The position numbers and the translations under genes are program-made. Source: Bacillota bacterium (GTDB lineage: Bacteria > Bacillota > DTU025 > MWDF01). Taken from it: DNA of 64,000 nt. This document shows, one piece after another, positions 44,586 through 56,469 of the stretch. The first letter of the stretch is position 1. Each line of letters opens with the position of its first letter. The notes beneath the pieces were generated by a model that ran no database searches, had not been told where the DNA came from, and saw nothing but the letters and a program-made list of their open reading frames with translations. The stretch lies in the NCBI GenBank assembly GCA_029565935.1, contig JAKQNF010000030.1, positions 1-64,000 on the forward strand. Direction: 5' to 3'.

Positions 44586-45854
44586 TCATTTCTTCCTTCC
44601 GCTCCCGATGTCACTCCTGGTGAACAGGTTGGCGCACTGCACCCTATCGGCAATCCTGTAGGCCTTGCCTGTAGCTTCGTTCACGTCCTTGCCCAGCGCG
44701 CTGATCGCAAGGACCCTGCCTCCGGAGGTCGCCAGCCTATAAAGGCAGTCCTGCATTGTGCCCGCGTGGAAGATCACGACGCCCTCTTCTATCTCGTCAT
44801 CCTTGGGCAGTTCGATCTTGAAGCCCTTGTCGTACATCTCGGGGTAGCCCTTGCTTGCCATCACCACGCACACGGAGGCTCCGTCCTTGAATCTTATGCT
44901 CTCCCTTTCCATGCGGCCTTCGCAAGCTTCGAGCATTATCTCAACGAGGTCGTCCTCCATGAGCGGAAGGACCGCCTGCGTCTCCGGGTCGCCGAACCTG
45001 CAGTTGTACTCGAGCACCTTAGGGCCCTCTTGAGTGAGCATGAGCCCGGCGTACAGCACTCCCCTGTAATGGAGGCCCTTCTCCGCGAGCTTCTTCAGTA
45101 CAGGCACCACGGTCAGCTCCGCGAGTTCCTCGGCCTGCCCCATGCTTACGAACGGCGACGGCGCGACTGATCCCATGCCCCCGGTGTTGTGGCCCTTGTC
45201 CCCGTCGAGCGCCCTTTTATAGTCCTTGGCGGGCATCAACGGCAGCGCCCTTATACCGTCGCATAGGCACAGAAGGGATGTCTCGACCCCCTCGAGCCTC
45301 TCCTCTAGGATGATCCTGCCTCCCGGCTGCATGATCTCCAGCCTCGAAAGGGCCAGGGAGGCTTCCTCCGGCGTCTCGGCGACGACCACGCCCTTGCCTG
45401 CCGCCAGGCCGTCGAGCTTGACCACCAGCGGGCCCTCCGCCTTGTCTAGCGCCCGCATCGCCTCCGCCGCGTTTTCGAATATTGACGCCTTCCCAGTGGG
45501 GACGCCGGCTTCGATCATCACCTGCTTCGAGAACGCCTTTGATGATTCCAACCTCGCGCATTCCTTGCAGGGTCCGAAGACCTTCCTGCCATCCTTGGCC
45601 AGCCTGTCGGTGATGCCAAGCGCCAGGGGCACTTCCGGGCCGACTACCACCAGGTCGGCATCCACCATGCCGGCAAGGCCGGCCAGACCCTCTATGTCGT
45701 CCGCCTTGATCTCGAAGCATTCTGCAAGCTTGGCAATCCCGGGATTGCCAGGCGCGGCGTACACTTTGCTTACTAGCTTGCTCTGGGCTATCTTCCAGAC
45801 AAGCGCGTGCTCCCTTCCGCCGGAGCCTATCACAAGGACCTTCAGACCTTCCAT
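44586..45854 (-). CDS. purD: phosphoribosylamine-glycine ligase
   Basis: LVIGSGGREHALVWKIAQS, GPEVPLALGITD, KLDGLAAGKGVVVAET, EYNCRFGDPETQ. Confidence 0.96.
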   Translation of the reverse strand: MEGLKVLVIGSGGREHALVWKIAQSKLVSKVYAAPGNPGIAKLAECFEIKADDIEGLAGLAGMVDADLVVVGPEVPLALGITDRLAKDGRKVFGPCKECARLESSKAFSKQVMIEAGVPTGKASIFENAAEAMRALDKAEGPLVVKLDGLAAGKGVVVAETPEEASLALSRLEIMQPGGRIILEERLEGVETSLLCLCDGIRALPLMPAKDYKRALDGDKGHNTGGMGSVAPSPFVSMGQAEELAELTVVPVLKKLAEKGLHYRGVLYAGLMLTQEGPKVLEYNCRFGDPETQAVLPLMEDDLVEIMLEACEGRMERESIRFKDGASVCVVMASKGYPEMYDKGFKIELPKDDEIEEGVVIFHAGTMQDCLYRLATSGGRVLAISALGKDVNEATGKAYRIADRVQCANLFTRSDIGSGRKK

Positions 45855-45953
45855 TCGCTTAACCTCCTGGATGTATCGGATCGCGCAGTCTTGTCATTCG
45901 AGTCGCCGGAAAGAGTCCTCCTTAATCATGTCGGCGTCAAGCGCAGCTTGTCA

Positions 45954-47504
45954 TCAATGCTTGAAATGCCTTACGCCCGTGAATACCATCGCTATGCCGT
46001 GCTTGTCGCACTCTTCTATGCTCTCCTTGTCCCTTATGCTCCCGCCGGGCTGGATAATCGCCTTGATACCGGCCTTGACCGCCTCTTCTACCGTATCCTT
46101 GAACGGGAAGAACGCGTCTGACGCCATGACCGAGCCTTCGGCCTTCTCTCCTGCCATCTCTATCGCGATCCTTGCGGCTCCTACCCTGTTGGTCTGCCCT
46201 CCTCCGACACCTACTGTGGACTGGCCCTTCCACAGGAGGATGGCGTTGGACTTGACGTGCTTTACGACCTTCCAGGCCTTCAGCAGCTGTTCTATCTGCT
46301 CTTCGGTGGGGCATACTTTAGTAACGCATTTCAGGTCCGAGGCGTTCACCTGCCTCGTGTCCGATTCTTGCATCAGGAACCCGCCGGGTAGGGATTTTAT
46401 CTCCACTTCCTTGGGCCTCATCATCTCATCCAGGGGAAGTTCGACGAAGCGCACAGAGGGCTTCTTGGCGAACAGGTTCACCGCCTCGCCCGAAAAGCTG
46501 GTGGCGACCACGACCTCGAGGAATATCTCGGCCATCTTCGAGACGGTCTTCTCGTCGAGCTGCCTGTTTGAGGCGACTATCCCGCCGTACGCGGACACAG
46601 GGTCCGATTCCAGCGCCAGCCTGTAGGCCTCGCCTATGTCGTCGGCCACGCCCACCCCGCAGGGGGTCGCGTGCTTCACTATGCAGACGCAAGGTCTGTC
46701 CGGCCCGAACTCCCTTACTACGGCCATCGCGGTCTCCATGTCGCCGAGGTTGTTGTAGGACAACTCCTTGCCCGACAGCTTCTTCATGGCGAGCATGCCC
46801 TTGGGCAGCAGCCCGCTGCTCTTGAAGAGGACGGCCTTCTGGTGCGGGTTCTCACCGTACCTTAAAGTGAGCTCGGGCGTGCCTCCGATCGCGATGGGGC
46901 CGCCTGCGAGGTCCATCGTGCGCCTTCCGGCGCGCTCGTTCATCTGCTGTGATATCGCCGCGTCGTACGCCGCGGTGTGGGAGAACGCCTTCGCGGAAAG
47001 CTCGAGCCTCGTCAGCTTGCTGACTTTGCCGTTGAGCCTCAGCTCCTTTAGTACCCTCGCATAGTCGGAAGGGTCCGTTACGACCGTCACCCGCTCGAAG
47101 TTCTTGGCCGCGGACCTTAGCATGGAAGGCCCTCCGATGTCGATGTTCTCGACTATCGTCTCGAAGTCCGCCCCCTTGTCCACCGTCTGCTGGAAAGGAT
47201 AGAGGTTGACGCACACAAGGTCTATCAGCTTGCAGCCGAGCTTGGCGACCTGCCTTAAGTGCTCGTCTATGGGCCTGGCCAAGATCCCGGCATGCACCAT
47301 CGGATGGAGAGTCTTCACCCTTCCGTCCAGGCATTCAGGGAAGTTGGTGAGCTGAGATATGTCGGTCACCGCAAGGCCGGCCTTCCTGAAGGATGCCGCC
47401 GTGCCTCCAGTGGACACTATCTCGAATCCTAGCGATACGAGCTCTTTTGCGAAATCGACCGCCCCGGTCTTGTCCGAGAGGCTTATCAACGCAATCTTTG
47501 CCAT
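45954..47504 (-). CDS. purH: bifunctional AICAR transformylase/IMP cyclohydrolase
   Basis: ALISLSDKTGAVDFAKELVSLGFEIVSTGGTA, RVKTLHPMVHAGIL, LRYGENPHQKAVLF, VKHATPCGVG. Confidence 0.97.
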   Translation of the reverse strand: MAKIALISLSDKTGAVDFAKELVSLGFEIVSTGGTAASFRKAGLAVTDISQLTNFPECLDGRVKTLHPMVHAGILARPIDEHLRQVAKLGCKLIDLVCVNLYPFQQTVDKGADFETIVENIDIGGPSMLRSAAKNFERVTVVTDPSDYARVLKELRLNGKVSKLTRLELSAKAFSHTAAYDAAISQQMNERAGRRTMDLAGGPIAIGGTPELTLRYGENPHQKAVLFKSSGLLPKGMLAMKKLSGKELSYNNLGDMETAMAVVREFGPDRPCVCIVKHATPCGVGVADDIGEAYRLALESDPVSAYGGIVASNRQLDEKTVSKMAEIFLEVVVATSFSGEAVNLFAKKPSVRFVELPLDEMMRPKEVEIKSLPGGFLMQESDTRQVNASDLKCVTKVCPTEEQIEQLLKAWKVVKHVKSNAILLWKGQSTVGVGGGQTNRVGAARIAIEMAGEKAEGSVMASDAFFPFKDTVEEAVKAGIKAIIQPGGSIRDKESIEECDKHGIAMVFTGVRHFKH

Positions 47505-47522
47505 AACGAACCCTCCTAGATG

Positions 47523-47705
47523 CTAGTCTCGTCCTTCGCTGCCTTTTTCCGCAGCGTCCGGCCAAAGGCCCCGTATCCTGCCTCTTCCGCCGTCACCGCG
47601 CTCGGCGCGTACTGCCTTGCGGTCCAAGAAGAGCCTGATGCGGGCCCTGATATAGGTCACCCATGCCTTGTGGTTCATTAGCAGTTGAAGTAAGAGTGCC
47701 CTCAT
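47523..47705 (-). CDS. candidate 60-aa basic small protein translationally coupled to purN
   Basis: MRALLLQLLMNHKAWVTYIRARIRLFLDRKAVRAERGDGGRGRIRGLWPDAAEKGSEGRD; start overlaps the purN stop (ATGA); fills the purN-purH gap. Confidence 0.4.
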   Translation of the reverse strand: MRALLLQLLMNHKAWVTYIRARIRLFLDRKAVRAERGDGGRGRIRGLWPDAAEKGSEGRD

Positions 47706-48328
47706 AATCCCTTGTCTTCCGTCAGAGTCCTTCTGCCCTCCATGCGCACCTTGCCTTCGCTTATGAGCCTGAGGGCCTTTACGTAGAGCTTGTGCTCCTT
47801 TTCCAGTATCCGCGCCGAGAGGCTCTCCTCGTCGTCCTCGTCCAGCACCGGCACGGCCTCCTGGAGGATGATCGGCCCGGTGTCGGTGCCCTCGTCGACG
47901 AAATGAACCGTGCACCCGGTCACCTTGACCCCGTATTCCAACGCCTGCCTCTGGGCGTCGAGCCCGGGAAAGCTCGGCAGTAGCGCCGGATGGATGTTGA
48001 TTATCCTTCCGGGGAACCTCCCCACGAACTCGGGCCCCAGCACCCTCATGAAACCCGCCAGGGCTATAACGTCGGGATCGTAGCCGAAGACCAAATCCGC
48101 AAGGGCCATGTCATAATCCGCCCTAGATGCGAAGCCCTTCCTCGTCAGGACCGCGATGTCCATATTACCACAGGCCATCGCCTTGTCGATGACCGGGGCC
48201 TTGGGTCTGTCGCATACCAGGGCCGCTATCTCGGCGTCCAGGGCGCCTTCTCGTATCGCGTCTGCTATAGCGGAGAAGTTCGACCCTCTCCCAGATGCCA
48301 TTACGACCAGCCTCAGCTTCTTCGTCAA
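47702..48328 (-). CDS. purN: phosphoribosylglycinamide formyltransferase
   Basis: VVMASGRGSNFSAI, LAGFMRVLGPEFVGRFPGRIINIHPALLPSFPG, GCTVHFVDEGTDTGPII. Confidence 0.96.
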   Translation of the reverse strand: MTKKLRLVVMASGRGSNFSAIADAIREGALDAEIAALVCDRPKAPVIDKAMACGNMDIAVLTRKGFASRADYDMALADLVFGYDPDVIALAGFMRVLGPEFVGRFPGRIINIHPALLPSFPGLDAQRQALEYGVKVTGCTVHFVDEGTDTGPIILQEAVPVLDEDDEESLSARILEKEHKLYVKALRLISEGKVRMEGRRTLTEDKGL

Positions 48329-48543
48329 CCTTCTTCCGCCTTTCCGTACTGCCGCTTCGTCAAGCTGTGCTTGTCATGCGCAGCGTAACCGCCGTTTATA
48401 TGCGATCGGCGCCTAGGATCCCCTTCCCGCCTCCAAGACGGTACAAAACGGGCGCCTAATCAAGGACGAAGGCCCGAACATGGCAGGTCCCCCAGTCCGG
48501 GCGCTTCTAGCGCGCTTCGTTTCCACCATGCCGGATGATGCGG

Positions 48544-51054
48544 TCAGGAAAGCCCCTTGAACCTTACCTCGGTCTTCCCTTCAATTATCCTGCCGACCAC
48601 GAACGCCTTCTCGCCGGATGCCTCAAGCGATCTGATCGCGCTCGCCACGTCCTCTTGCCTCACTATGGCAAGGAAGCCGAGCCCCATGTTGAAAACCCTC
48701 AGCATCTCCATCGGCTCTACCTTGCCAAGCCTTGCTATCATGCCGAAGATAGGAGGGACGGGCCAGCTGCCGTAATCCAGCTCCATGCCCGTGCCTTCAG
48801 GAAGGCACCTTATTGGGTTCTCCACCAGGCCGCCTCCTGTTATATGCGCCATGCCGAGGACATCTACTCCATCCAGCAGCGCCATCACGGGCCTTGCGTA
48901 TATCTTCGTGGGCTTCAGCATCTCCTCGCCCACCGTGCAGCCCAGCTCATCGAAGTGCTCGTGGAAGTACAGGCCGCTGTCGGCCAGAAGCACGCGCCGC
49001 GCGAGCGAGTAGCCGTTGGAATGCAGGCCGCTCGAGGAAAGTCCTATGACCGCGTCGCCCGGCCTTATCTTCGACCCGTCTATTATCCTGCTTTTCTCCA
49101 CCGCCCCGACGGCGAATCCCGCTATGTCGTACTCACCGTAAGGGTAGAAGCCCGGCATCTCGGCCGTCTCGCCGCCCACGAGGGCGCAGTCCGCCATGAC
49201 GCACCCGTCGGCGACTCCCTTGACTATGTCGGCCACGAGCTCGGGTATGAGCTTGCCGAGCGCTATGTAATCCAGGAAATATATGGGTTTCGCGCCCGAC
49301 ACTAGGCAGTCATTGACGCACATGGCCACGCAGTCTATTCCGATGGTGTCGTTCTTGTCCATGCCCATCGCTATCCTGAGCTTGGTGCCGACGCCGTCGG
49401 TCCCGGAGACCAGCACGGGCTCCTTCATGCCCAAAGAGCTTACGTCATACAGGGCCCCGAAGCCGCCTATGCCGCCTATCACGCCCTTCTTGCTGGTCCT
49501 CATCACATGAGGCTTGATAAGGTCGACCGAGCGGTTGCCAGCGTCTATGTCCACGCCCGCGCCCCTGTAGGTCGAGCCGGGGGCGGTCTGCCCGCCTGTC
49601 CTTTCCAGGGCGTACTTGCCTTCCTCGGCGTCTATCGCGGTCGGATACTTGCCGTCGAAGCACGCGGTGCAGAAGCCGCGGCTGCCCGAACCGGATGCGC
49701 GCCTTGCCCTCTCGACGGCCTCGACGAGCCCTCCGGTCGACAGATACCTTAGCGAATCGGCCTGGATCATCGACTTTATCTGCTCGATCCCCTTTATCGT
49801 GGCGACGAGCTCTCCTCGGCCGGTCGTGTCTATGCCGTAGTGGCAGCCGTATTTCACCGGCGGGGACGACACTACGAAGTGCACCTCGGTCGCGCCCGCC
49901 CTCTTCATGAGGTCGACGAGCTTACGGCTGGTCGTGCCCCTGACTATCGAATCGTCGACCAGTATGACCCTCTTGCCGTTGATGAGCGACGCCACGGCGT
50001 TGAGCTTGAGCCTTACGCCCAGCTCCCTTATGTTCTGCGAGGGCTGTATGAAGGTGCGGCCCATGTAGCGGTTCTTGATCATGCCCATGACGTAGGGGAG
50101 CCCGCTCTCCTTGGCGTAGCCCTGGGCCGCCCCTATGCCGGATTCTGGCACGGGCACCACTATGTCGGCCTCGATGTCCCTGTTCTCCCTGGCCAGTTGC
50201 CTGCCAAGCTCGAAACGCGCCTCGGCCACCCCGATGCCGTCTATCATGGAGTCGGGCCTCGCCAGGTATACGTGCTCGAAGATGCAGGACGTGTGGCGCA
50301 CCCCGTTCATTATCCCGGCGGAATGTATGCCGTCCTTCGTCATGTATATGATCTCGCCCGGCTCGACGTCCCTTATCCTTATGGCGCCTATCGTGTCCAG
50401 CGCGCAGGATTCCGAGGCGACGAAATAGCCCGTGCCGTCGGCCGCCTCGCCTATGACCAGCGGCCTGAAGCCGTGCGGGTCCCTTGCGGCGTAGACGGTG
50501 TCTCCCTGCAGGACCACGAAGGTGTACGCCCCGTCGAGCGTCTCCATCGCCTTCCTTATCGCCCCGAGCATGCCAAGGTCGTAGTGCCTGGCTATCGTGC
50601 ATCCTATCAGCTCGGAGTCCGACGTGGTCTGGAACACCGCGCCAGTCTTGCCGAGCCTCCTTCTGAGCTGGGCCGCGTTGGTTATGTTACCGTTATGAGA
50701 CAGCGCCATCATGCCGTCAATGTATCTGAAGGTCATGGGCTGGGCGTTCATTATGTCGGAGTTGCCCGTCGTCGAGTACCTGACGTGCCCGATGCCGGTG
50801 TGACCCTTCAGGGTCGTGATGGGCTGCCTTGCGAACACCTCGGTAACGAGGCCCATGTCCTTGAGCACCTTGATCTCCGTGCCCTCGTACGTCGCTATGC
50901 CGGCGCTCTCCTGTCCTCTGTGCTGCAGGGCGACCAGTCCCATGAATATGCTCTCCGAAGCGGGCCCTTCGAGGGCGGCGCCGAACACGCCGCATTCGTC
51001 GCGCACGGAATCGTCCTCGTAGATGTTGCCAAGATGCCTGTCCAACGAATCCAT
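48544..51054 (-). CDS. purF-purM: PurF-PurM fusion: amidophosphoribosyltransferase + phosphoribosylformylglycinamidine cyclo-ligase
   Basis: 836 aa single frame. PurF half DECGVFG...LQHRGQESAGI...VDDSIVRGTTSRKLV...FCTACFDGKYP, then PurM half YRGAGVDIDAGNRSVDLIKPHV...GIGGFGALYDV...SGTDGVGTKLRIA...VGGETAEMPGFY. Confidence 0.95.
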   Translation of the reverse strand: MDSLDRHLGNIYEDDSVRDECGVFGAALEGPASESIFMGLVALQHRGQESAGIATYEGTEIKVLKDMGLVTEVFARQPITTLKGHTGIGHVRYSTTGNSDIMNAQPMTFRYIDGMMALSHNGNITNAAQLRRRLGKTGAVFQTTSDSELIGCTIARHYDLGMLGAIRKAMETLDGAYTFVVLQGDTVYAARDPHGFRPLVIGEAADGTGYFVASESCALDTIGAIRIRDVEPGEIIYMTKDGIHSAGIMNGVRHTSCIFEHVYLARPDSMIDGIGVAEARFELGRQLARENRDIEADIVVPVPESGIGAAQGYAKESGLPYVMGMIKNRYMGRTFIQPSQNIRELGVRLKLNAVASLINGKRVILVDDSIVRGTTSRKLVDLMKRAGATEVHFVVSSPPVKYGCHYGIDTTGRGELVATIKGIEQIKSMIQADSLRYLSTGGLVEAVERARRASGSGSRGFCTACFDGKYPTAIDAEEGKYALERTGGQTAPGSTYRGAGVDIDAGNRSVDLIKPHVMRTSKKGVIGGIGGFGALYDVSSLGMKEPVLVSGTDGVGTKLRIAMGMDKNDTIGIDCVAMCVNDCLVSGAKPIYFLDYIALGKLIPELVADIVKGVADGCVMADCALVGGETAEMPGFYPYGEYDIAGFAVGAVEKSRIIDGSKIRPGDAVIGLSSSGLHSNGYSLARRVLLADSGLYFHEHFDELGCTVGEEMLKPTKIYARPVMALLDGVDVLGMAHITGGGLVENPIRCLPEGTGMELDYGSWPVPPIFGMIARLGKVEPMEMLRVFNMGLGFLAIVRQEDVASAIRSLEASGEKAFVVGRIIEGKTEVRFKGLS

Positions 51055-51058
51055 CAGA

Positions 51059-53361
<2,303 letters not shown>

Positions 53362-53362
<1 letters not shown>

Positions 53363-54063
53363 CAGCGTACGCCCCCCTTCCCGCACCAGCTCATGACGGA
53401 CTTGAACACCCTTAGGCCGTCGGTGCCCCCGAGGATCGATTCGACGACCCGCTCGGGGTGCGGCATGAGGCCCACCACGTTGCCGGTCTTGTTCGTTATG
53501 CCCGCTATGTTGTGCATGCTTCCGTTCGGATTGGACGCTTCCGTAAGGGAGCCGTCCGGCTCGGCGTAGCGGAAGACTATCCTTCCTTCGTCCTCGAGCA
53601 GCTTGATGGTGTCGGGATCGGCGTAGTAGTTGCCCTCAGCGTGCGCTATCGGGAAATCTAAGACCTCCCCTTTTTTATAGAGGTGCGTGAAGGGTGTGTT
53701 GACGTTATCGATCCTGAGCTTCTGCGGTCTGCAGATGAACCTTAGCCCCGTGTTCCTTAGCGTCGCGCCGGGTAGGAGCCCTGACTCGAGCAGGGTCTGG
53801 AATCCGTTGCAGATGCCGAGCACCGGGCCGCCTCCTTCCGCGAACTCGCTCACAGCGTCCATGACGGGGGAGAAGCGCGCGATCGCGCCGCAGCGCAGAT
53901 AGTCCCCGTGCGCGAAGCCGCCGGGCAGGACTATCGCGTCATAGCCTCTGACATCCTTGTCCTTGTGCCATATGAAGCCGGACTCCGAGCCTACGACCTC
54001 GGCCGCCCTCTCTATGTCCCGGTCGCAGTTGGAGCCGGGGAAGACCACTATGCCTATCTTCAT
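53362..54063 (-). CDS. purQ: phosphoribosylformylglycinamidine synthase subunit PurQ
   Basis: VVFPGSNCDRDIERA, LPGGFAHGDYLRCGAIA, LGICNGFQTL. Confidence 0.97.
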
Positions 54064-54323
54064 TTCGCCACTTCCTCGGCCACGGTGAACTCATACCTCT
54101 CCATCACGAGGTTGGCCAGGAGCTTCTTGGATATCTCGTCGACCATGGCGCGCGCTGCGGCCTCGTCATCGGCCTTTAGGCGCACCTCGATGAACTTGCC
54201 CAGTCGGACGCTGTCGACGTCTGAATATCCCATGCTGAGAAGCCCGGTCCTGACCGCGACGCCCTGGGGGTCGAGTATGGACGGCTTGAGAGTGACTACG
54301 ACCTTAGCAAGATAGCTCTTCAC
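54060..54323 (-). CDS. purS: phosphoribosylformylglycinamidine synthase subunit PurS
   Basis: KVVVTLKPSILDPQGVAVRTGLLSMGY; GTG start at 54323 after a GGAGGTG RBS. Confidence 0.94.
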   Translation of the reverse strand: MKSYLAKVVVTLKPSILDPQGVAVRTGLLSMGYSDVDSVRLGKFIEVRLKADDEAAARAMVDEISKKLLANLVMERYEFTVAEEVAK

Positions 54324-55033
54324 TTTATTGCACCTCCGGAAATCCTTCTCAGTACCTCTTCGTACGCTTCCTCGACCCCGCCTAGGTCGCGGCGGAAGCG
54401 GTCCTTGTCGAGCTTCTCGTTGGTCTGGCTGTCCCAGAAGCGGCATGTGTCAGGCGAGATCTCGTCGGCGAGTATGATTTCTCCTTTAAAGAAGCCGAAT
54501 TCGAGCTTGAAGTCCACGAGCGTCAGCCCGCGCGCCGCCATGAACGGCTTCATGAGGGAATTGACCTTAGTCGCCATATCCCTTAATGTATCTACGGTCT
54601 TCTGGTCAGCCTTGCCCAGAAGCCTGATATGGTCGTCGTTCACGAGAGGATCGTGCAGCTCGTCGTCCTTGTAGTAGATCTCTCGCACCGGCTCGTCCAG
54701 CACTACGCCCTCGGGGATGCCCAGCCTCTTGGACAGGCTGCCGGCGACTACGTTCCTGACCACGACTTCGAAGGGTATTATCTGCACGTGCTTCACAAGC
54801 ATCTCGGTCTGTGATACCAACCTGACGAAGTGTGTGGGTATGCCCTTCTGTTCTAGATATCCGAACATGGCCGCGGACATGAGGTTGTTCACCTTGCCCT
54901 TGCCTACGATGGTGCCCTTCTTCTGGCCGTCGAATGCAGTGGCGCTGTCCTTGTAGCTGATCAGCACTTCATCCGGGTTCTCCGTGGCGAAGACCCTCTT
55001 GGCCTTGCCCTCGTAAAGCAGCTTGCTTTCCAT
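54320..55033 (-). CDS. purC: SAICAR synthetase
   Basis: LLYEGKAKRVFATENPDEVLISYKD, VVRNVVAGSLSKRLG, DFKLEFGFFKGEIILADEISPDTCRFWD. Confidence 0.97.
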   Translation of the reverse strand: MESKLLYEGKAKRVFATENPDEVLISYKDSATAFDGQKKGTIVGKGKVNNLMSAAMFGYLEQKGIPTHFVRLVSQTEMLVKHVQIIPFEVVVRNVVAGSLSKRLGIPEGVVLDEPVREIYYKDDELHDPLVNDDHIRLLGKADQKTVDTLRDMATKVNSLMKPFMAARGLTLVDFKLEFGFFKGEIILADEISPDTCRFWDSQTNEKLDKDRFRRDLGGVEEAYEEVLRRISGGAIK

Positions 55034-55076
55034 TCCCATTTCCTCCAATCGGGATCGAAGTATGTTCTCCGTTAAT

Positions 55077-55580
55077 CTATCTTCCCTGGTTCCTTACCTC
55101 TTCGTCGGCTTCGAAAGCCTTCGACTTCAGCGCCTCTTTATGTTCTGCGAGTTTCGCCGCCAGGTTCTTATCGGATATGGCCAGCATCTGGATCGCGAGC
55201 AGGGCGGCGTTGGCGGAGCCGTCAATGGCGACAGTCGCGACGGGCACGCCTGTGGGCATCTGTACCGTGGCATAAAGGGCGTCCAGGCCGTTGAGGGCGC
55301 CGGAAGCTAGCGGTATGCCTATGACCGGAAGGGTGGTGTTGGCCGCCATGGCGCCCGCAAGGTGCGCGGCGGCGCCGGCACCCGCGATGATGACCTTGAT
55401 GCCGCGGCTTTGGGCTTCCTTAGCGTACTGGGATGCCGTGTCCGGTGTGCGGTGCGCGGATATGACGCGCATCTCGCTCTCGATGCCGAACTGTTGGAGC
55501 ATCGTCGATGCGGTCTTCATGACGTTAAGGTCGGACTTGCTGCCCATCACTATTCCGACTACAGGACCTTTGGTTTTCAT
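55077..55580 (-). CDS. purE: 5-(carboxyamino)imidazole ribonucleotide mutase
   Basis: VGIVMGSKSDLNVMKTA, VISAHRTPD, AGAGAAAHLAGAMAANTTLPVIGIPL. Confidence 0.97.
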   Translation of the reverse strand: MKTKGPVVGIVMGSKSDLNVMKTASTMLQQFGIESEMRVISAHRTPDTASQYAKEAQSRGIKVIIAGAGAAAHLAGAMAANTTLPVIGIPLASGALNGLDALYATVQMPTGVPVATVAIDGSANAALLAIQMLAISDKNLAAKLAEHKEALKSKAFEADEEVRNQGR

Positions 55581-55606: not shown

Positions 55607-55646
55607 AGCCCCGCGAACAGGGTTACGAAACCTGCCCGCCGGGGCT
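55607..55646 (-). terminator. expression-platform hairpin overlapping the 3' part of the riboswitch aptamer
   Basis: AGCCCCG...CGGGGCT pairing uses conserved aptamer 3' bases; followed by GCATTTTC before the AGGAGGAG RBS. Confidence 0.5.
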
Positions 55647-55752
55647 TTTATCCCTTAGGTGTAGCCTTGCCTCGCAGGGCGAGGAGGCCTGCGCCGCTCG
55701 GTCCAGGCAAGCTCGGTACATACCGTTGCTACGGAACCCTAGGCGCACTTTC
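55627..55752 (-). ncRNA. PRPP riboswitch (ykkC subtype 2b-like) leader of the pur operon
   Basis: Minus strand: GAAAGTGCGCCTAGGGTTCCG...CCTGGACCGAGC...GGCTACACCTAAGGGATAAAAGCCCCGGCGGGCAGGTTTC; these are ykkC-class core motifs located upstream of purE. Confidence 0.8.
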
Positions 55753-56025
55753 GTCATATTCATTTGTAGATTTTAACCTCTACAAAATCCAAAGCCGCAA
55801 TGCCCTTTAGGACGTCGCGGCGATAACGCTAACTCTATTCGGCTCCGTCAGGGGACCCATCCGTGAGAACACGGAAGATGGTCTTGGTATAAACCCTGAA
55901 GGGCCAACGCATATCCTTTTCGTCCTCCTCAAAACGGGCCTCTCTGTGCCCCCTTATTTGATTCGACCACAAGTGAATTCTAAGCGAATTGTCGAAATTC
56001 TTCAAGCGTCAGGATGCTGTAGTAG

Positions 56026-56469
56026 CTATTCATCTATGTCCTTGACGAAACACACCACGCGATTGGATTCCTTGAAGCCGAGCTTCTCGTGGAAGGCGAT
56101 GCTCGTCTTATTAGTGAGCTCGCAATCGCTGGCCAATTCCACGAGGCCCTTTGCCCGTACCCAGTCCTCGCATCCTTTGAACAGCTTTTTGGCGACGCCC
56201 TTATGCCGATGGCCTTCAACGACGCATATGCCCTCGAGATATCCTACCGGGCTTGAGCTGGTACCTTCGACATAGTCAGAGCGGATCTGGCAATGGGCGA
56301 AGCCTATGGGCAGGTCCTCCTCGATGGCCAGTAACACTATGGCCTTCTCGTCCTCGAGTGTCTTTTCGAACTCTCGCTTAAGCTCCTCTTCATCGTTATC
56401 GGGCCATAAGAGCATGGCTAGCTTGACTATTTCGTCCATCCTCTCGATCTCTGCTTTTGTAATCACCAT
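56026..56469 (-). CDS. GNAT-family N-acetyltransferase
   Basis: SPVGYLEGICVVEGHRHKGVAKKLFKGCEDWVRAKG...ELTNKTSIAFHEKLGFKE. Confidence 0.88.
   Translation of the reverse strand: MVITKAEIERMDEIVKLAMLLWPDNDEEELKREFEKTLEDEKAIVLLAIEEDLPIGFAHCQIRSDYVEGTSSSPVGYLEGICVVEGHRHKGVAKKLFKGCEDWVRAKGLVELASDCELTNKTSIAFHEKLGFKESNRVVCFVKDIDE

Follow-up and report, generated by a model that had tools for sequence, protein, structure and literature searches.

The leader of the purE gene on the minus strand of the 64-kb stretch of Bacillota DNA analysed here (hereafter the window) belongs, to judge from its sequence, to an established class of RNA sensors, the PRPP riboswitches (ykkC subtype 2b). We hold with high confidence that it is a singlet PRPP riboswitch, turned on by PRPP, in which a PRPP-free hairpin lowers pur expression, most likely via transcription attenuation; that this leader binds PRPP, that it switches in the ON sense and that it works by attenuation in the window's genus is what we infer. 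PRPP riboswitches on pur operons were already described in 2018 (PMC5912903, PMC6031431), and the window holds a further member, ordinary and clear in every respect except an unusually weak downstream stop signal.

The purE leader and its ligand-contact bases

The aptamer spans 55754–55625 (−), in a leader RNA that immediately precedes the purE Shine–Dalgarno sequence, and the conserved blocks quoted in the original prediction all lie in this place and on this strand. The leader and the genes that follow comprise:

55754–55749 (−), P0 5′ strand ACGAAA, pairing with 55630–55625; A5 equivalent at 55749, G6 equivalent at 55748
55747–55742 (−), P1 5′ strand UGCGCC, pairing with 55695–55690
55742–55733 (−), conserved CUAGGGUUCC of P1a/P1b, invariant in 50 leaders but fixed by the search pattern
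55701–55690 (−), CCGAGC with the P1 3′ strand GGCGCA (55695–55690); G48 equivalent at 55697, C49 equivalent at 55696
directly 5′ of the P1 3′ strand GGCGCA at 55695–55690 (−), CUGGACCGAG
55688–55664 (−), P2 hairpin GCCUCCUCGC-CCU-GCGAGG-CA-AGGC
55662–55658 and 55654–55642 (−), P3, ACACC and GGGAUAAAAGCCC; C75 equivalent at 55661, C77 equivalent at 55659
55641–55627 (−), aptamer 3′ tail CGGCGGGCAGGUUUC; G96 equivalent at 55640, A103 at 55633, G104 at 55632, G105 at 55631
55640–55627 (−), GGCGGGCAGGUUUC block
55630–55625 (−), P0 3′ strand UUUCGU
55646–55607 (−), competing (off-state) hairpin AGCCCCG...CGGGGCU, −25.9 kcal/mol
55606–55594 (−), AUGCGCAUUUUCU, a weak, displaced U-run, identical in the sister species
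55593–55586 (−), purE Shine–Dalgarno sequence AGGAGGAG
55580–55077 (−), purE, which opens the pur operon (TIGR01162, 206 bits, cut-off 149.6)
55048–44586 (−), purC, purS, purQ, purL, a purF–purM fusion, purN, purH and purD (NCBIfam equivalogs above cut-off)

The whole ykkC core (CUAGGGUUCC, GGNCCNAG, ACACC and GGGAUAAAAGCCC) is present, and ACGAAA/UUUCGU forms a P0 helix of six pairs that the original prediction had overlooked, the helix which 2b leaders build from their conserved 5′ GAAAG and 3′ AGGUUUC tails. The contacts in the PRPP aptamer of T. mathranii are A5, G6, G48, C49, C77, G96, A101, G104 and G105, while C75 pairs with G96 and A103 stacks (PMC6031431). From this crystallised aptamer the window keeps A5, G6, G48, C49, C75, C77, G96, A103, G104 and G105; its position 101 equivalent is a purine, and the G at 55640 (G96) can pair with the C at 55661 (C75). 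The T. mathranii 3′ end, as given by primers, reads AAAAGCCC-G95-G96-G97-A-G-G-A101-U-A103-G104-G105-UUUC (PMC6031431), with which the 3′ end of the window, AAAAGCCC-C-G-G-C-G-G-G-C-A-G-G-UUUC, stands in gap-free register. The position 95 and position 98 equivalents are both C in the window, against G and A in T. mathranii, and both letters also occur at these positions in other 2b leaders. The original prediction gave the Thermoanaerobacter 3′ end as GGCGGG(U/C)AGGUUUC; the real one is GGGAGGAUAGGUUUC (PMC6031431 primers; locus L064), and the form first given is common in other Firmicutes.

The closest known systems are the T. mathranii aptamer (PDB 6CK5) and the singlets of H. modesticaldum purB and F. 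ignava purC (PMC6031431, PMC5912903), which have in common with the window the P0–P1–P2–P3 architecture, the ligand-contact bases, the pur-operon context, the singlet layout and a hairpin competing with P3 and P0; the window differs from them in C at 95 and 98 and in an off-state hairpin without an immediate U-tract. Tandem guanine–PRPP riboswitches (PMC5912903) contain a PRPP aptamer of this class too and act on the same genes, but the window has no guanine aptamer directly upstream; the Rfam scan gave no purine-riboswitch match in the 64-kb window.

Class assignment

At gathering thresholds, Rfam returned no match anywhere in the 64-kb window; that it misses the leader is explained by the only matching ykkC model being that of the guanidine-I class. 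A permissive cmscan against all 4227 Rfam families did place RF00442 (guanidine-I) on the leader at 55753–55635 (−), full length, with 48.9 bits and an E value of 5.2e-8, below the 63-bit gathering cut-off. We also scored the leader with R1, a covariance model of 49 PRPP-type leaders, all from outside the window's class, that derive from a pattern scan of named genomes with at least 118 stretches listed, mostly from Firmicutes. This held-out subtype-2b model gave 100.7 bits (E 2.7e-26, 177 kb searched) for the window leader and 93–107 bits for other members of its class, and only 40–65 bits (maximum 64.5) for guanidine-I loci, which themselves reach up to 91 bits on RF00442. With such E values from both the Rfam and the held-out model, the quoted blocks are far beyond chance. 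The RF00442-type aptamer is present as a single copy in the 1.80-Mb genome.

That guanidine-I is the sole relevant Rfam family matched by the leader, sharing its core fold, CUAGGGUUCC and GGGAUAAAAGCCC, might suggest a guanidine-I riboswitch. The score of 48.9 against a gathering score of 63 bits speaks against it, as do a C at position 49 (55696), where guanidine-I has A, and ACACC in place of ACACGG, with C49 excluding guanidine; P0 and the GGUUUC tail, conserved here, are absent from guanidine-I examples, and the guanidine-I loci examined have A at position 49 and a P3 strand ACACGG and lack the tail. We put the chance of this class next to nil.

The ppGpp riboswitch (subtype 2a) stands nearer, as 2a and 2b have most of their consensus in common (PMC6031431) and both the fold and the pyrimidine C49 suit either. 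The subtype-discriminating nucleotide, G in more than 97% of 2b and not G in 2a (PMC6031431), is G in the window (the G96 equivalent at 55640), which favours 2b, and a G96A change switched specificity about 40,000-fold (PMC6031431). Downstream lies a purine operon, not amino-acid genes. A ppGpp riboswitch is thus very improbable, in a 2a/2b split that rests on the G96 criterion from PMC6031431, the scored comparison set being guanidine-I. Weaker RF00442 matches read as possible native 2a controls are 2b-like or variants. The contact bases (including G96 and C49), P0, the held-out model and the purine-gene context all agree with the subtype 2b (PRPP) class originally proposed.

Covariation was assessed on 50 leaders, the window leader included. 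The search pattern had fixed several conserved bases, whose invariance is therefore not evidence, and had left P0, GAAAG, P1 and P2 free. On this set, the structure described above has 93.9% of its cells paired and 15 pairs changed on both sides, with a covariation of 0.386, where shuffling gives 0.170 and slid versions no more than 0.107. The inner four pairs of P0 form in 49–50 of the 50 leaders and its outer pairs covary; P1 covaries strongly with 99.3% of cells paired, and all six pairs of P2 have both-side changes.

The pur operon and its surroundings

As predicted, the leader lies upstream of de novo purine genes: purE to purD follow, and relatives have a purine-gene context too. Leaders found by the RNA pattern alone mostly stand ahead of pur genes where there is enough downstream sequence. 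In the window, purE through purD are all on one strand (44586–55580), and a terminator scan found no minus-strand terminator-like site between pur genes in this interval. Gaps of about 100–215 nt precede purN, purH and purD, so internal promoters are possible; that the leader controls the whole pur operon is plausible. A promoter search gave no more than a poor match to the consensus, a long way upstream, and a −10 element at GAATAT would place the transcription start within P0, so that we assign no promoter.

Several features of this neighbourhood stand apart from the riboswitch. A single 836-aa open reading frame (48544–51054, −) encodes PurF joined to PurM, both parts scoring above NCBIfam cut-offs; the fusion also occurs in all four order relatives checked and in L041 and L091, and a literature search for it found nothing. 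Upstream, a GNAT protein (56026–56469, −) passes the aminoglycoside 6′-N-acetyltransferase equivalog cut-off (NF043067, 185.5 versus 140 bits), its predicted function. Between this acetyltransferase gene and the riboswitch lies a 25-aa open reading frame, MRWPFRVYTKTIFRVLTDGSPDGAE (55838–55912, −), 64% identical in the sister species, whose DNA also folds, with compensatory-looking changes. It is followed at about 55825–55775 (−) by a likely intrinsic terminator, GCCGCGACGUCC-UAAA-GGGCAUUGCGGC then UUUGGAUUUU (−16.7 kcal/mol), which is kept in the sister species and stands between the upstream gene and the purE leader.

A competing hairpin with a weak stop signal

The AGCCCCG/CGGGGCU hairpin of the original prediction sits exactly at 55646–55607 and takes conserved aptamer bases: it overlaps the 3′ strands of both P3 and P0 as well as the tail that binds PRPP, and so cannot coexist with the bound aptamer. 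In the absence of ligand, the fold that contains the hairpin is favoured at −89.2 kcal/mol, whereas forcing the aptamer with its P0 gives −75.6 kcal/mol (neither figure includes tertiary or ligand energy). At high PRPP, the leader would fold as P0–P1–P2–P3 around PRPP and metal ions; this ligand-bound fold would occupy the GCCC (P3) and UUUCGU (P0) strands, block the hairpin and allow expression of the pur operon, as an ON switch. Without PRPP, the hairpin would form and take the P3 and P0 strands, and expression would fall, most likely via transcription attenuation as in other members of the order.

Those order relatives (L002–L006) carry an equivalent hairpin with a U-richer tail, for example, among the other families of the order, GCCGGGGCUUUUCUUUUUC in L005, and likewise in L006, and use it as a canonical intrinsic terminator. 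A simple terminator scan found none on the purE leader; a second, crude and bulge-free scan gave zero for the window and also missed some likely true terminators, so that we used U-tract content as the measure instead. At least 6 U occur in the 10 bases after the hairpin in 107 of the 126 leaders listed; the tail of the window and its sister, UAUGCGCAUUUUCU, with 4 U among these 10 bases, is one of the weaker ones but inside the range. In the window's genus the U-run amounts to no more than UUUU and begins some 8 nt downstream of the stem.

It is possible, though on balance doubtful, that in this genus the same PRPP aptamer works through translation control or a non-standard (composite or Rho-assisted) stop in place of the intrinsic terminator. 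The weak, displaced UUUU points this way, as do the 47-nt platform at 55624–55578, identical in the sister species, and three leaders from records labelled Chloroflexi in which the U-tract after the hairpin is also missing. The AUGCGCAUUUUCU segment can pair with GAAAGUGCGC (55752–55743) or with the purE Shine–Dalgarno region; AUGCGCAUUUUCU/AGGAGAUUGCAU can cover the Shine–Dalgarno sequence and AUG, and the GAAAGUGCGC/GCGCAUUUUC duplex has −13.4 kcal/mol. In this reading, AUGCGCAUUUUC would pair either with GAAAGUGCGC, the 5′ strand of the aptamer, or with the ribosome-binding site of purE. Against these readings, the Shine–Dalgarno sequence is unpaired at 0.43–0.53 in both ON and OFF constrained folds, so that no translational switch is predicted, and if the segment paired with the 5′ strand of the aptamer when PRPP is absent, the Shine–Dalgarno sequence would be released rather than blocked. 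Order relatives retain the hairpin with its U-richer tail, and displaced U-runs are also seen in other leaders, such as L099, L103 and L128. Because the accessibility of the Shine–Dalgarno sequence shows no difference between the constrained states, simple translational control by its sequestration is disfavoured and kept as a rival reading only. By analogy with the relatives, the competing hairpin most likely acts in the window's genus by PRPP-relieved transcription attenuation.

Conservation within the class

Among 12 genomes sampled from the class, purE was found in nine assemblies; the aptamer precedes it in all eight that could be assessed, and in the ninth the gene starts 41 bases into its contig. 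A third member of the genus (G011, 77% complete) has neither purE nor the leader in its assembly. The contig of the sister species matches Firmicutes bacterium ADurb.Bin153, Bacillota. Positions 55675–55561 are identical between the window and this species, in spite of a purE identity of 86.7% (66% at third codon positions), which indicates that the expression platform is constrained. A sub-cut-off Rfam score and a weak terminator could also be expected of a degenerate, non-functional ykkC relic, a reading made scarcely credible by intact contact bases and by 100% identity of core and platform across the two species, against 72–84% for P1b and the upstream DNA. That the genus lost the ancestral intrinsic terminator and conserved another platform, consisting of the off-state hairpin and the pairing segment 55606–55594, seems to us rather unlikely.

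Related aptamers in other lineages

In the phylum to which G400 belongs (the source record of G400 bears the label Chloroflexi), R1 finds matches in 27 of 400 genomes. PRPP-type aptamers make up the strongest of these, and among the weaker ones are guanidine-I riboswitches and other variants. Aptamers of the PRPP type that have P0 and G96, scoring up to 108.7 bits with R1, are found in Chloroflexi-labelled records and their phylum at L215, L216, L219 and L222 (riboswitch near position 1501 in each locus), L217, L220, L246 and L225. They stand ahead of a His_Phos_1, Aminotran_5 (class-V) and SerA-like 2-hydroxyacid dehydrogenase operon, serine-biosynthesis-like in content, or of a purL-like gene, and G399 and G400 have both kinds. 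The PRPP class was reported in Firmicutes, with mention of neither Chloroflexi nor serine (PMC5912903), and as a finding these aptamers may be newer than the purE leader itself.

A variant ykkC subtype-2 group (L223, L224, L226–L229, L231, L232 and L236) terminates in GCCCGGAUGGUAGGUUCAC at its 3′ side, has its P0 shifted (GAGAU-GAAG / GUUCACUC) and lies ahead of genes that by eye are NCS2/NCS1 nucleobase permease-like. Four Firmicutes 2b-like leaders (L180, L184, L186 and L038) have a 3′ tail one base shorter, for example GCCCAGGCGG-UAGGUUUC, and may represent a sub-variant of the binding pocket; three of them precede purine permease-, BMP-type lipoprotein- or purB-like genes.

Implications

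The purE leader illustrates how a default Rfam cut-off can miss PRPP riboswitches when the matching model is that of the guanidine-I class. If this genus had indeed replaced its terminator, the leader would be a PRPP riboswitch acting without plain intrinsic termination, new relative to PMC5912903 and PMC6031431 as distinct from an exhaustive survey. With this leader, a small and uncultured class of Bacillota gains a PRPP riboswitch of secure classification, and its conserved but terminator-poor platform offers a case in which a change of expression platform beneath an unchanging aptamer can be tested.
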